From positions 124,001 to 188,000 of the forward strand of contig NZ_MAGO01000001.1 of NCBI RefSeq assembly GCF_001687335.1: a stretch of DNA of 64,000 nucleotides, in the 5' to 3' direction. Below are positions 3,171 through 63,531 of the stretch, one piece after another (position 1 is the first letter of the stretch; the number at the start of each line of letters is the position of its first letter). The DNA comes from Dissulfuribacter thermophilus (GTDB lineage Bacteria > Desulfobacterota > Dissulfuribacteria > Dissulfuribacterales > Dissulfuribacteraceae). The notes below the pieces were generated by a model that did no database searches, was not told the origin of the DNA, and saw only the letters and a list, made by a program, of their open reading frames with translations. The translations under genes were made by a program, and so were the position numbers.

Positions 3171-4327
3171 AATAGTTTATCAATCTTATTTTGAAATTTA
3201 AATCCTGAAAGACAAACATTTGAATTAATCCCTTTTGCCTGAATAAAAAATTTGTGTGAATCCCCCATCCCCTGAGGTAATAAAAGCATTTTTATACCGG
3301 CAAGAGCTGGAGAAAAAGGATCCAACCCCTTGGGATAAAGAGTTTCTATAACCTTTTCTATCCCCAATGAAGCTAGAAAACTCCATTGATTACAAAAACC
3401 AATAGGTTGAAGATTTAATTCAGATCCCCACTCTAACATATCAGTAAAATTAACATGATGAGTAATATCACGTTCCCCAGGATTTGAATACAAATCATCA
3501 CTTAAAGTGTGCTGATAAAAAGCCCTGAGCGTCCCTCTTTTTCTTAAAGGACTGTAGTAGTCTCTCCTAGAAAAACCATAATCAATGGTAAATAAAAAGC
3601 CTTTTTTAAGGACATTTGCCACCTCAGATAGCCAGTCCTTTAAGATTAAATTAATTTCTGTACGATATCCCAAATCAACATTACCTAAATATTGATGAAT
3701 ATAGGACTGAAGCCTTTCATCAGAAAGGCTACCATAGGTTTCTGTAAGATGTTTTCTATCTTCATGAGATATATATACTTCGAAAAAACCCTCTTCCCTC
3801 TTTTCAATCATATGAACTGGAAAGGCATCGATAAGTTCATTTGAGACAATACAACCATTGATAGACCCAATTTCCTCTAGACTATTAAACCAGGTACATG
3901 GAAATTCTTTTAATAAATCCCTTTGAACCGCCTCCAAAGACCCTATTGGTTCCACAATAAAAACTTTTAAATGAGAATAAAAGTCAGGTAAATTGGTCCT
4001 AATATAGTTGAGAATGTCATGCATAAAAAGGCCAGACCCAGCACCTATTTCACATAGGTTAAACTCATCTTTTCCTAAAAGATTCCACATTTCATAAAGT
4101 TGAAGGGCGATAACGCCTCCAAAGACAGGACTGGCATGAGGAGATGTAACAAAATCGCCGGACCTACCAATAGGAACATGCCCTCTGGCATAATAACCAT
4201 GATGAGGATAATAAAGGGCCATTTCCATAAATTCGGCAAAGGTAATTGGTCCAGAATTGTCGATTTTTTCAAAAATAATCTGCTCTAATTTTATGGAATT
4301 CCCCTTAATGTTGTGGTACATATTCAT
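3167..4327 (-). CDS. SAM-dependent methyltransferase, MidA/NDUFAF7 family
   Basis: A 386-residue protein of the COG1565/DUF185 family. It has the family N-terminus (GPITFAEFMEMALYYPHHGYY, here residues about 25-45), the GDFVTSP block, and the SAM-binding loop CEIGAGSGLFMHDIL. A later IVSNELIDAFPVH block is also diagnostic. The mitochondrial homologue NDUFAF7 dimethylates an arginine of a complex I subunit; the bacterial substrate is unknown to me. It is the first gene of a two-gene unit with the HAD phosphatase (4-nt overlap). The 209-bp AT-rich gap to the divergent dnaN probably holds promoters for both directions. Confidence 0.88.
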   Translation of the reverse strand: MNMYHNIKGNSIKLEQIIFEKIDNSGPITFAEFMEMALYYPHHGYYARGHVPIGRSGDFVTSPHASPVFGGVIALQLYEMWNLLGKDEFNLCEIGAGSGLFMHDILNYIRTNLPDFYSHLKVFIVEPIGSLEAVQRDLLKEFPCTWFNSLEEIGSINGCIVSNELIDAFPVHMIEKREEGFFEVYISHEDRKHLTETYGSLSDERLQSYIHQYLGNVDLGYRTEINLILKDWLSEVANVLKKGFLFTIDYGFSRRDYYSPLRKRGTLRAFYQHTLSDDLYSNPGERDITHHVNFTDMLEWGSELNLQPIGFCNQWSFLASLGIEKVIETLYPKGLDPFSPALAGIKMLLLPQGMGDSHKFFIQAKGINSNVCLSGFKFQNKIDKLL

Positions 4328-18279: not shown

Positions 18280-18343
18280 TCAAAACACTAGAATATAAAA
18301 ATATGTCTTTTATTTTTATACTTGCTGAATTTATGATGTTCCG

Positions 18344-18583
18344 TTTGGGTACACACCAAATCGTCCCCTCGCAGATGAATATAAGGGTTGTGCGCTACTA
18401 GGTAGAAGGAAGAAGGGAGAAGGTAGAAGTAAAAGAAAGGAATTTTGAATCTTGAATTTTGTATTTTGAATCATAAACTTTTTATCTGCCTCTGGCTTTT
18501 ATACAGGCAGGCCTACCTGTTGGCAGGCAGGGCTTGCTTCTACCTTCTTCCTTCTACCTGTAATTATGACTATTTTCACGGTA
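18344..18583. repeat. Degenerate copy of the composite 'tag' repeat between gspH and ade
   Basis: It contains GGTAGAAGGAAGAAGGGAGA (18401-18420), a GAATTTTGAATCTTGAATTT stretch, CTGCCTCTGGCTTTTATAC, GGCAGGGCTTGCTTCTACC and TTCTACCTG..ATTTTCACGGTA. These blocks appear in the same kind of order at 41268-41545 and 63288-63500. A local inverted repeat GGCAGGcctacCTGTTGGCAGG is present. It fills most of the 334-bp gap; no gene is seen. Confidence 0.65.
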
Positions 18584-18613
18584 TCATTTATTTTGATCCA
18601 AGGATTATAGGAT

Positions 18614-41267: not shown

Positions 41268-41545
41268 CCCAAACTTTCATGACGAACGAATTCGTCAGCC
41301 CCGTATAGAAGTTTTGAGTTTTGAGTGTTGAGTTTTGAGTTGAAGGAAGAAAGACCTTTATAGAAGTTTTGAGTGTTGAGTTTAGAGTTGAAGAAAGAGA
41401 AGTTTGGACCTTAAACTTTTTATAACGTCTTCGCCCTTCAGCCTCTGGCTTTTGTCCATGCAGGGCTTGCTTCTACCTTCTGCCTTCTACCTGTTATTGC
41501 ATTATGTACCAGACGAATTATCCCAATGGGTATTTTCACTGTAAA
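41268..41545 (-). repeat. Composite 'tag' repeat, near-complete copy after hypB
   Basis: Read on the minus strand it starts TTTACAGTGAAAATACCC and ATTGGGATAATTCGTCT, then (after a 13-nt insertion) AACAGGTAGAAGGCAGAAGG, the block GCCAGAGGCTGAAGGGCGAA, two TTTTGAGTGTTGAG units and the hairpin GACGAATTCGTTCGTCATGA, ending AAGTTTGGG. The same blocks in the same order occur on the plus strand at 63288-63500. It is inverted relative to that copy and has no coding potential. Confidence 0.8.
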
Positions 41546-42347
41546 CTTTAATGACGAAGAAAAATCGATCCTCCCGTGGATGAAAATGTAACATTTGTTT
41601 GAGAGGGGACTTGCCTCAACGAATAACAAAACCCGTTTTGGCCCCTACCCTTTCTCCCCAAGAGGGCTACGTCTGCCATTCTTTTGACTTTATTCATTAA
41701 GCTGTGTTTGAGAACCGTCGTAAGAGGTCAACTATTTCTCCGAGAAAGAACGTTGATATCACTGTGTAGGAAAAAATATTAGATGTCAGATATATGACAG
41801 ACTAAATGATAGTACCAGAATAAGATCTACACCAATTGATAAAGGGAATCAAATAAAGGCAGAATTTCGGTCTTGTTTGTATGGAGCTGTTTATTGAGCA
41901 GGGTCAATTGAATCATATAGGCGGAACGAGTGTTCATATGTGCCCATATCTTAGGCTCTGATTCAGTAGCGTGGTTTGGGATGTTGGCCGAAACTGCCTC
42001 AAGTTAGGTGAGAAGTTGACTTCCCTTTCTGGGAAAGGATAAGTCTGCTCCCTTTCAATTTTGGGATCATAAAGTGGATACAGGGAAACGACGGCGATCT
42101 CCAGTGGGGGCGCCGTCGTGGCATGGCCCTGTGCGAACTCATAAATGCAATCATAGGAAACAGTTTTGGGCAATTGGGAGAATGAGCCCGATTTGTGTGA
42201 AGTGCTGCTCACAGGCTTTGGTTCCTCAGAAAACTCAAGGTGGTTTTGAGGAGAGGGTCTTTCTAAGAGAGGAGGGTTTCAGCAAGTAAGGCATCAATGG
42301 CTGTTCTTTTTGGGACAGCTATAAATTGAACATTTAGGAGGTTTCTT
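41546..42347. other. Long non-coding stretch with a possible structured leader
   Basis: About 800 bp with no convincing gene between the composite repeat and the outer-membrane protein gene. A G+C-richer folded segment stands at 42080-42132, and further short hairpins follow at about 42154-42188, 42193-42213 and 42224-42251 (CCTCAGAAAAC / GTTTTGAGG). Short reading frames here, such as 42074-42289, have biased composition and no domain. The region may be a long 5' leader or a small-RNA locus. Confidence 0.35.
42080..42132 (+). ncRNA. Candidate structured RNA upstream of the outer-membrane protein gene
   Basis: Outer stem ACAGGG (42080-42085) pairs with CCCTGT (42127-42132). The inner 9-bp stem ACGACGGCG (42088-42096) pairs perfectly with CGCCGTCGT (42111-42119) around a 14-nt loop. 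No U-run follows, so it is not a simple terminator. It does not fit the c-di-GMP, cobalamin, SAM, TPP or glycine riboswitches, tmRNA, RNase P or 6S RNA as far as I can tell. Which strand is expressed is not known. Confidence 0.3.
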
Positions 42348-48763: not shown

Positions 48764-50152
48764 ATGAGTGATTTTGAGAAAGGCTTAGGTGACAACCTTC
48801 ATCCAGTCTTAGATGATGAGATTGAAGAAGAGGGATTGTCTAGTCTCGATTTTTCAAGTCCCTCCATTGATCCAGTTAAGGTCTACCTTAAAGAAATGGA
48901 GGCAAGTTCCCCTTTAACCAAGGAACAAGAGCAGGAAGTCTCTCAGAAGATGGAAGAGGGGGAATTAAAGATATTGCTTTCAGGGCTCAAGCTACCTGAG
49001 GTAATGCATGTTTTTATCAAGAATGCCATGTGCTTTTTAAAGATTGCAAAAGAATTAGACATCGAGCCGTGTAGTGCCCTTCCTATTGGAACTAAGGATG
49101 GGACACTATGTGAAAAGGTATTGTGGCATATAAACAATGTTTACCATGAAAATGTTGAGCTCTTAAAAGAACTTAGCTTTACTGATGATGACAAACAGAA
49201 GACAGAAATAATTGCTCAGATCAAAAGGAATCTTTCTACTCTTAGAGACCTATTTGACGGTATAAGGATGGAAAAAAGCCTCCTTGATACTGTTATAAGA
49301 ATATTTAGAGAAGAAATTAAAAGACTCAAAAAGCTATCACAGCAAGAACTTCTATTGGAGACAGGCCTTTCAAAAGACGAGTTAGAGGAGACTGAAAAGG
49401 ACTTTATTGATGGATTGTCCAATGCCACTTCAGCAAAAAGGCATCTAATACAATCGAATTTGAGATTGGTTGTTAGTATTGCAAAAAGATATGCTCACAG
49501 GGGACTTCATCTCTCTGACCTTATTCAAGAAGGTAATATAGGGCTCATGAAGGCCGTAGAAAAGTTTGAATATAGGCGCGGTTACAAGTTTAGTACCTAT
49601 GCTACTTGGTGGATAAGACAGGCAATTACCAGGGCCATTGCTGATCAGTCTAGAATTATTAGGATACCAGTTCATATGATAGAGACTATGAACAAGGTAT
49701 TGAGGACTATGAGGGAGATACATCATGAGACTGGACAGGAGCCAGATCTGGCTGAGGTCGCTGAGCTTGTGGGATTAACAAAGGAAAAGGTAGAGCAGAT
49801 ATTAAAAATTGCCAAGGATCCAGTAAGTCTTGAAACTCCTATTAATGATGAAGATGATTCATATCTAATAGATTTTATAGAGGATGAGGAGACTCCTACC
49901 CCAGATGAATGGGCAATTAGGATGAATCTTATGGAGCAAATGAGGATAGCACTGGCCACCTTGACTCCAAGAGAGGAAAAGGTCATTCGAATGCGCTTTG
50001 GAATAGGGGAAAAAGCCAATCATACCTTGGAGGAAGTGGGTAAGAACTTTTCTGTTACCCGAGAGCGCATTCGTCAAATAGAGGCAAAGGCCCTAAAGAA
50101 GCTCAGACATCCAATTCGTGGTAAGGACTTAAAAAACTTCATAGAAAAATGA
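48764..50152 (+). CDS. rpoD: RNA polymerase primary sigma factor (sigma70 family)
   Basis: A 462-residue sigma factor. Region 1.1 is largely missing: after ~35 acidic residues region 1.2 starts at [11 protein letters not shown] non-conserved region (about 75-215) precedes regions 2.1-2.4 ([37 protein letters not shown]). Region 3 holds [12 protein letters not shown], and region 4 has [16 protein letters not shown] and [18 protein letters not shown]. The 2.4 and 4.2 helices are those of housekeeping sigma factors. It follows dnaG on the same strand beyond the 259-bp repeat. Confidence 0.94.
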
Positions 50153-50272
50153 TGTATTTGCTCACAGGGCACCGCATCTACTGCGTTGTCGGGCATTCGA
50201 CGTACAAGGAGTACTCCTTCATGCCCTTCGCCTTGTATCTGAGGCAATACTACATGACACCACATTTTGCTA
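50153..50272. repeat. Palindromic intergenic repeat after rpoD
   Basis: GGGCATTCGACGTAC (from 50190) faces GTACTCCTTCATGCCC (to 50226), a hairpin of the same style as the GTACCTAAGTAC core of the 260-bp elements. The right end, AATACTACATGACACCACAT (50248-50267), matches in inverted form the arm at 8384-8406. Non-coding. Confidence 0.6.
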
Positions 50273-50273
50273 A

Positions 50274-50466
50274 TTTACCGTGAAAATACCCGTTGGGGTA
50301 ATGCGCCTAATATAACAGGTAGAAGGCAGAAGGTAGAAGGAAGCCCTGCATGTAAAAAAGCCAGAGCCCCTACCTTCTACCTCTATTCAGCTTCTGCCTT
50401 CTACCTTCTACCTATTCTTATTTTCATCCACGAGGGTGACGAACCAGGTCGTCATGAAGGTTTGGG
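50274..50466 (+). repeat. Composite 'tag' repeat with 58-bp end, left of the metalloprotease gene
   Basis: The first 58 bp (50274-50331, TTTACCGTGAAAATACCCGT to AGGTAGAAGGCAGAA) are an exact reverse complement of 51203-51260. After that come GGTAGAAGGAAGCCCTGC, an inverted block TACCTTCTACC, and the end hairpin with GTGACGAACCAGGTCGTCAT and AAGGTTTGGG. Its first 58 bp match 54 of 58 bases at 63288-63345. Confidence 0.8.
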
Positions 50467-50478
50467 ATGATTGTTTGG

Positions 50479-51111
50479 TCATGCATATAAATCTATTCTG
50501 GTCCCACTTTCGGTTTTTTCATCAGATGAAGTTTGCATTTTGTCTGGATTATTTAATTGATTCATCTCTTTCATAATTTTAACCATGGCTTCTATAGCTT
50601 TGGCGGCTGCTAGGACTGCAACGCGTCTGTCCTGGGCAGATGGATGGGCTGGAGCCAAAGCAGCATGCTGGACTGCGTACATCTTTTGGAGCGTTTTTCT
50701 TGGGTTGGCTTCTTCAGATACGTCAATAGAGACCTCTCCTGCAACTGCATATCTTTTCCCATCTGGTCCCATTTTATATTCAAACGTCGCTCCTCCTCTA
50801 ACATAAATGCCACCTGCGGCAATGTGGGCCATTTCGTGTTGTTTGACTTCTCGATCTCTTTGCTTGAGCTTGAAGAGTTCTTGAATCTCTTGAGGAGATA
50901 GTTTTTCTCTTTGAAAAACTGAGGCTTTTTTTTGAGAGGCAGATTCTGTCTGAATTTTATTTTTTGATTCTACGTTTTTTAGGCCAACTTGTCCACTTTC
51001 TTTATTGGCAGCACTTAGGGAAGAGGGATCTGTCTTGTCTTTTTCCCTCATTATCTGTTGGGAAAAATAGAGATTTGGGAAAGAACTAGAATTTAATGCA
51101 CCAATTTTCAT
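50479..51111 (-). CDS. Putative metalloprotease, SprA-related/CJM1_0395 family
   Basis: About 210 residues from the ATG at 51111; a TTG at 51159 would add 16 residues. The N-terminal ~85 residues are polar and low-complexity. The core has VKQHEMAHIAAGG, an HExxH zinc motif, then YVRGGATFEYKMGPDGKRYA (block), GEVSIDVSEEANPRKTL and AHPSAQDRRVAVLAAA, the pattern of SprA-related putative metalloproteases of unknown role. No signal peptide is seen. The gene is enclosed by a perfect 58-bp inverted repeat (50274-50331 and 51203-51260), which may mean it was moved or duplicated as a unit. Confidence 0.75.
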   Translation of the reverse strand: MKIGALNSSSFPNLYFSQQIMREKDKTDPSSLSAANKESGQVGLKNVESKNKIQTESASQKKASVFQREKLSPQEIQELFKLKQRDREVKQHEMAHIAAGGIYVRGGATFEYKMGPDGKRYAVAGEVSIDVSEEANPRKTLQKMYAVQHAALAPAHPSAQDRRVAVLAAAKAIEAMVKIMKEMNQLNNPDKMQTSSDEKTESGTRIDLYA

Positions 51112-51202
51112 TTGTATCTTCAAGAGAGACTTTAAATTTTCTAGTCCTTTTTTCGTCAATATTTTGTGTCAACTTTAAAAATGATGTTTAAATGTACATT
51201 CT

Positions 51203-51260
51203 TTCTGCCTTCTACCTGTTATATTAGGCGCATTACCCCAACGGGTATTTTCACGGTAAA
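51203..51260 (-). repeat. 58-bp end of the composite repeat, right of the metalloprotease gene
   Basis: An exact reverse complement of 50274-50331 (58 of 58 bases). Only this end is present here; the rest of the composite repeat is missing. The 51112-51284 gap holds nothing else recognisable. Confidence 0.85.
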
Positions 51261-51284: not shown

Positions 51285-52043
51285 TTAATTTGATACGATG
51301 AAGGCCTGGGGGAATCCTGACTTTTCAAGCTTATATTCAAGTCTCTTGGCCTGATTTAATGAAGTGCCTCCAAAAATTTGGACTCCATATAGAAGTCCAT
51401 GATGAGACCATCGTTTTAAAATTATTACACGGGCGTATTGTCGAGACAGCCTTTTTTTCAGTCTTATTGCATTTTGTTTATTTTTAAAGGCACCGACTTG
51501 TATGTAAAAGTTTCCATGTTTTAAGTCAGGGATGTGTTTAAAATGAGGAGGCCTCCCTACCCTACTCTTAGTTCCTTCACCAAGTGCTGTCACTCTAACT
51601 TTTGCAACTCCAGGTCCGACCAAGCCGATAGCCTTTGCAGCAGTATAACTCAGGTCTATAATGCGATTTTTTACAAATGGTCCCCGGTCATTTATCCTTA
51701 CAATAGTTTTCTTGCCATTTTCAAGGTTTTCCACAAGGCAGTACGTTCCTAGAGGAAGAGTCTTGTGGGCAGCAGTGTAGGCATACATATTGTACATTTC
51801 GCCACTTGATGTGGGCCTTCCGTGAAAATTTCTTCCATACCAGGATGCATAGCCAACCTTGCTATAGCCTACTGATGTTGGTAGCGGATAGTAAATGCGT
51901 CCTCCAACCACGTAGGGCTGTTGGGTTGGAGGGAGTCCTGGATACCTAGGGGGTTTGGGTCCAGCACAGGACCACAGAAGGTTTATGATGCTTACTATGC
52001 AAAAAAGCCTTAATATGGTAGAAGTCTTAGAAAAAATTTTCAT
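51285..52043 (-). CDS. rlpA: RlpA-family lipoprotein (septal lytic transglycosylase) with SPOR domain
   Basis: A 252-residue lipoprotein. The signal ends in a lipobox at LLWSC (C26), followed by a Pro-rich linker. The double-psi beta-barrel shows YASWYGRNFHGRPTSSGEMY, AAHKTLPLG and VRINDRGPFVKNRIIDLSY (part). A C-terminal SPOR domain (FYIQVGAFKNKQNAIRLKK, part) binds denuded peptidoglycan. RlpA cleaves glycan strands without stem peptides at the septum. It is head-to-head with the cysteine desulfurase gene, the two ATGs only 3 nt apart, and neither has a clear ribosome site. Confidence 0.92.
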   Translation of the reverse strand: MKIFSKTSTILRLFCIVSIINLLWSCAGPKPPRYPGLPPTQQPYVVGGRIYYPLPTSVGYSKVGYASWYGRNFHGRPTSSGEMYNMYAYTAAHKTLPLGTYCLVENLENGKKTIVRINDRGPFVKNRIIDLSYTAAKAIGLVGPGVAKVRVTALGEGTKSRVGRPPHFKHIPDLKHGNFYIQVGAFKNKQNAIRLKKRLSRQYARVIILKRWSHHGLLYGVQIFGGTSLNQAKRLEYKLEKSGFPQAFIVSN

Positions 52044-63287: not shown

Positions 63288-63500
63288 TTTACCTTGAAAA
63301 TACCCGTTGGGATAATTCGTCTAATATAACAGGTAGAAGGCAGAAGGTAGAAGGAAGAAGTAATCCCTGCCTGTACAAAAGCCAGAGGCTAAAGGGCGAA
63401 GACGCTATAAAAAGTTCAAGGTCCAAACTTCTCTTCCTTCAACTCAAAACTCAACACTTTTATACGGGGGTGACGAATTCGTTCGTCATGAAAGTTTGGG
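63288..63500 (+). repeat. Composite 'tag' repeat, complete copy near right edge
   Basis: The 58-bp end 63288-63345 matches 54 of 58 bases with 50274-50331. Then follow GGTAGAAGGAAGAAG, GCCAGAGGCTAAAGGGCGAA, ATAAAAAGTTCAAGGTCCAA, TTCAACTCAAAACTCAACAC and the hairpin GACGAATTCGTTCGTC, ending AAAGTTTGGG. The whole is the inverse of 41268-41545. It fills the 340-bp gap between the TPR gene and the convergent EAL gene. Confidence 0.85.
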
Positions 63501-63531
63501 ATGTAAAAGACAGAATAGGTATATTTTTAAA

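Follow-up and report, generated by a model that had tools for sequence, protein, structure and literature searches.

Inverted repeat arms around the sprA-like gene

In the 64,000-nt stretch of Dissulfuribacter thermophilus DNA analyzed here (the window), a sprA-like gene stands between two perfect inverted arms; these arms are very probably two oppositely oriented copies of one species-restricted, non-coding intergenic repeat family, and sprA itself is a resident gene. The dispersal of the family, the anatomy of its element and the residence of sprA in one relative are documented below. The repeat search placed the arms at 50274-50331 (+ strand) and 51203-51260 (- strand), where they are 58 nt long, 100% complementary and spaced 871 nt apart; a 58/58 match of this kind lies far beyond chance level and confirms the perfect 58-bp inverted repeat enclosing one gene that the initial annotation had described. 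Arm 1 forms the left end of a complete copy of a dispersed repeat (58/58 inverted match; 49 genome matches), located in the gap between rpoD and sprA. Arm 2 is the left end of a second copy, located between rlpA and sprA and truncated inside its heptamer array, as seen from the inverted match, the copy comparison and a right-end scan in which no right end was found within 600 nt. The two flanking copies are therefore unequal in extent, with arm 1 running into a full element and arm 2 stopping in the heptamer array.

The sprA-like gene (50479-51159, - strand) matches PF12118 ‘SprA-related’ with an E-value of 5.4e-28. Its ORF opens with TTG, and an ATG at 51111 appears the likelier true start, as judged from its N-terminus (MKIGAL...) beside that of a relative (MKILPQ...). 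The product contains HEMAH, which, reading by eye, we take to be a zincin-like motif, and NCBIfam offered no name for the protein. ORF and domain analysis found just this PF12118 gene plus short overlapping ORFs between the arms, with no transposase there or in either flanking element. The convergent neighbor of sprA is rpoD (48764-50152, + strand), and an rlpA-like gene (51285-52043, - strand) lies upstream of and co-directional with it. Promoter and terminator scans around sprA gave nothing above shuffled sequences that was relevant to the pair of arms.

Gene order in a relative without the repeats

Relatives of the SprA-like protein are encoded in 19 of the 41 genomes searched. The metagenome-assembled contig WGBU01000047.1 has the order dnaG-rpoD-sprA-(extra ORF)-rlpA-nifS, which apart from the extra ORF is the order found here, and sprA and rlpA have the same relative orientation in both. 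No inverted repeat flanks sprA on that contig. The extra ORF, of 302 aa and missing from the window, lies at 1836-2744 of locus L081 on the contig, between rlpA and sprA. The stop-to-stop distance between rpoD and sprA is 19 nt in WGBU01000047.1 vs 326 nt here, where positions 50154-50466 are repeat-derived. A second, shorter stretch (locus L032 in genome G002) carries rpoD-sprA-rlpA with identities to sprA and rpoD that match those of WGBU01000047.1, and the two are probably the same genome; a 102-nt left-end query found no match in G002. At the remaining sprA loci, most of which were seen with 1.5 kb flanks, neither rpoD nor rlpA adjoins sprA, and so the synteny and the empty site amount to one comparison, with a relative at large distance in another genus of the same family. 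Since the same neighbors in the same orientation occur there without the repeats, sprA is a resident gene around which repeats have accumulated. The gene at the same place in a relative lacking the repeats is also the first of the two findings, the other being a lack of inversion reads, that the initial annotation had named in advance as speaking together against its own reading.

That reading was of a composite mobile element in which two inverted ends carry sprA as cargo, and one gene bounded by two perfect inverted ends has this outward form. We rejected it on the gene order of the relative, where sprA has the same position and orientation, and consider it extremely improbable. The unequal flanking copies and the lack of a transposase in them or between the arms also oppose it, as does the fact that arm 1 belongs to a complete element whose own right end falls inside the supposed gene-carrying unit. 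Moreover, the left ends elsewhere in the genome stand singly: the proposed check for other genes bounded by the same 58-bp end yielded no second facing pair less than 1 kb apart among the 25 best of the 49 matches.

Copies, placement and apparent restriction of the repeat family

A 60-nt query from arm 1 gave 49 matches in the genome, which comprises 27 contigs and 2,524,199 bases. The matches lie on both strands and many contigs, and 25 have E <= 7.2e-8. The arms are thus copies of something spread through the genome, and the suggestion of recent copying or mobility in the initial annotation holds to that extent. The draft of strain S69 was assembled from 454 reads with a mean of 411 bp, according to PMC5276818. 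By a simple heuristic that counts ORFs of at least 90 aa as genes, all 25 left-end copies are intergenic once six ORFs of 90-121 aa running through the repeat itself are discounted, and 12 of the 25 have convergent ORFs on their two sides. Further family members in the window lie at 41275-41547 on the - strand (left end near 41547, right-end hairpin near 41277; left-end match C1:165476-165545) and at 63288-63504 on the + strand (left-end match C1:187288-187347, with the right-end scan), and a degenerate member with GGNAGAA- and TTGAATT-type heptamers plus a left-end remnant lies at 18330-18590 on the - strand. Period-7 arrays of three heptamers (GGNAGAA, ACTCAAA and TTGAATT types) were seen inside family members at 18400-18560, 41310-41341 and 63331-63360 of the window.

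An 18-nt left core was present in one of 395 genomes of the phylum, namely D. thermophilus itself. At E <= 0.001, the 102-nt left-end query had matches in 7 of 60 genomes. One was its own, and the six foreign genomes matched only over stretches of 24-37 nt at or beside the heptamers. Triple GGNAGAA heptamers gave 102 overlapping matches here, one each in 4 of 59 other genomes and none in two genomes of the same family, with a reversed-pattern control of 0. Phage records contained no match to the element, plasmid records a single one (Vibrio sp. J383, 22% of the query, interior alone), and viral contigs no exact match to a 23-nt left core; no Rfam RNA family matched in the window. Among the D. 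thermophilus papers listed in a literature search, judged by titles and the openings of abstracts, none is on such repeats. From these searches the family appears to be restricted to the D. thermophilus genome, with the proviso that most relatives' genomes are in many contigs and their assemblies may have lost repeats.

Anatomy of the element and its neighbors in the rpoD-sprA gap

In a typical element, period-7 arrays (GGNAGAA, ACTCAAA) separate the left end from a right-end hairpin; the 18 full elements measure 186-304 nt, i.e., about 190-300 nt. Most copies start with TTT[A/C]C and continue with a left end resembling CGTGAAAATACCCGTTGGG, GGNAGAA heptamers and a variable interior of TTCTNCC heptamers able to pair with the first array, and/or ACTCAAA-type heptamers. 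The right-end hairpin (best example GGTGACGAATTCGTTCGTCATGA) follows 18 of the 25 left-end copies at a distance of up to 600 nt and in matching orientation, as found by an ungapped scan that required at least 20/29 matches when the best of 100 control stretches reached 18/29; arm 2 is among the seven copies that lack it. A genome-wide count gave 15 occurrences of the pattern GGTGACGAANNNNNTCGTCATGA and 0 of its backward control.

The arm 1 element (50274-50466, + strand, ~193 nt) has all of these parts: a left end with a small hairpin, GGNAGAA heptamers pairing with TTCTNCC heptamers, and the right-end hairpin GGTGACGAACCAGGTCGTCATGA, after which it ends near GTTTGGG. It forms a long internal hairpin (197 nt folded, z -4.3), which none of 200 shuffled sequences equaled in stability. 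Beside arm 1, the rest of the rpoD-sprA gap (50154-50273) is filled by two further modules, namely a member of another dispersed family next to the element, toward rpoD (GCATCTACTGCGTTGTCGGGC..., 50154-50246, + strand) and a short third module, ACTACATGACACCACATTTTGCTAA (50247-50273, + strand), which also stands directly before the left end of the copy at C5:62081. Positions 50140-50273 gave 34 genome matches, in which several module families are taken together.

In the explanation that we favor, that of two opposite copies around a resident gene, the family would spread as short, non-autonomous units (about 190-300 nt) in which a defined left end and a defined right-end hairpin bound a variable period-7 interior. 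The convergent gap between rpoD and sprA would have received one full copy, next to the other repeat modules, and the gap between rlpA and sprA a second one that breaks off within the heptamer array.

Identity of the two arms

The arms were compared with other family members in an ungapped alignment of 19 copies over 58 positions, giving 171 pairs (one copy, L019, scores low through small indels). The two arms form the best pair, at 58/58; the next, at 57/58, joins copies on different contigs, and seven pairs reach 56/58. The perfect identity of the arms is at the upper end of the family range, though the best pair is also the adjacent one. Both arms share the variant combination GGGGTAATGCGCC, which occurs in none of the other 17 copies compared. 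When 25 copies were placed at random in 2.52 Mb, 21% of trials had a pair within 990 bp and 6% had a facing pair, and as the model covers the whole genome, restriction to intergenic DNA is expected to raise both values. Such an arrangement can be explained without a special cause, even if other outcomes are commoner, and the 6% for so close a facing pair is a point against the explanation favored above.

Independent insertion would not predict that the best match falls on the only two adjacent copies. This coincidence points to some local event, and the exact identity would reflect a recent common origin or gene conversion between neighbors. Local conversion between the arms is plausible. More specifically, copy 2 may have been made from copy 1 or converted by it, through short-patch gene conversion or template switching, a possibility to which we give somewhat less than an even chance; it concerns the perfect identity alone and is compatible with the explanation favored above. 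The top rank of the arms among the 171 pairs and their private variant combination argue for it. However, 57/58 is reached by unlinked copies, and because the shared stretch begins exactly at the left boundary of the family, as in members elsewhere, copy 2 also looks like an insertion in its own right.

The same identity bears on whether the 58-bp arms recombine with each other and so turn sprA around with respect to rlpA and its promoter. In principle, homologous recombination could act on perfect inverted arms spaced 871 nt from each other, and it would also maintain an identity above that of all other pairs, yet each arm is an unremarkable member of a dispersed family, no recombinase gene is among the identified neighbors, and the orientation of sprA equals that in WGBU01000047.1; we therefore regard an invertible segment as very unlikely. 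Equally slight, in our estimate, are the chances of a broader proposal, that the arms are kept identical by acting as a pair (as a panhandle or by flipping) and that the genome holds mobile elements of a new class, in which the ends are constant and the interior is made of interchangeable heptamer arrays. In the minimum-energy fold of the rlpA-sprA transcript strand, the sprA frame is enclosed by a single panhandle stem made of the 58 bases; the inverted repeat by itself is enough to give this predicted fold, which is not a sign of function. If the pair does act, a read-through rlpA-sprA mRNA would have a long double-stranded stem as a cap, controlling its stability or translation.

Spread of the element

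No target-site duplication was detected in the 18 full elements, where the mean shared word was 4.17; shuffled pairings gave 4.07 +- 0.16, with 100 of 300 reaching the observed value. Terminal inverted repeats were not evident by eye either. Movement of the element would resemble passive mobilization by an enzyme, of the REP/MITE type. Hairpins together with no detected target-site duplication would fit mobilization by a Y1/HUH enzyme.

Two copies of a Y1-transposase gene occur in the genome, with open frames of 313 codons. These IS200-like copies, at C5:143798 and C12:38057, are 96% alike over 964 nt and have unrelated flanks, and thus seem to have been mobile recently. As the mobilizer of the repeat, the Y1 transposase was rejected, because both loci lack the two end cores and the heptamers within about 3.2 kb each. 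A reverse transcriptase domain (PF00078) gave a match on contig C20, in two stretches, and a weak match on C2. The C20 domain (3284-3893) is split over the two stretches, one with an in-frame TGA, which suggests a broken gene or an assembly error.

Comparison with known repeat systems

The repeat belongs to a known general class, that of intergenic repeats restricted to a species. Heptamer repeats are familiar from cyanobacteria as the STRR repeats. In Beggiatoaceae, direct repeats of the heptamer TAACTGA are described as period-7 intergenic arrays scattered in one genome (PMC4679880). The arrays seen here are likewise period-7, intergenic and scattered in one genome; in contrast to both of those systems, the heptamers are other ones, and they make up the interior of a constant-ended element where those arrays are free-standing. 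Neisseria intergenic mosaic elements and dRS3 form mosaic chains of short repeat modules in intergenic DNA. The chains of different short intergenic modules in D. thermophilus are similar to these by description. The dRS3 repeat is named among bacterial repeats in PMC3733652, which describes REP elements, REPINs and BIMEs as short, non-coding, intergenic and multicopy, with hairpins, often downstream of or between convergent genes and in some cases species-specific.

The element here likewise is non-coding, intergenic and multicopy and has hairpins, but at about 190-300 nt it is far longer than the 20-40 bp of a REP and is built round period-7 arrays. An unpaired GTAG or CGTC tag at the hairpin foot was not recognized by eye, and unlike REPs with a RAYT, the Y1 transposase genes are not flanked by the repeat. 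It resembles MITEs in being short, non-autonomous and dispersed with defined ends, and differs from those of the DDE type in its terminal inverted repeats, not evident by eye, and target-site duplication, not detected. What was found, a dispersed multicopy non-coding element with constant ends, is MITE or REP-like in the wide sense.

A family with constant ends and a heptamer-array interior may interest researchers of REP-like elements, because it has no evident terminal inverted repeats, detected target-site duplications or linked transposase. Together, these data correct the tempting reading of a gene-carrying mini-element. They also show that the intergenic DNA of a thermophile has grown through one repeat family, and if the relative represents the older state, repeats would have enlarged the intergenic DNA on the rpoD side of sprA from 19 to 326 nt.
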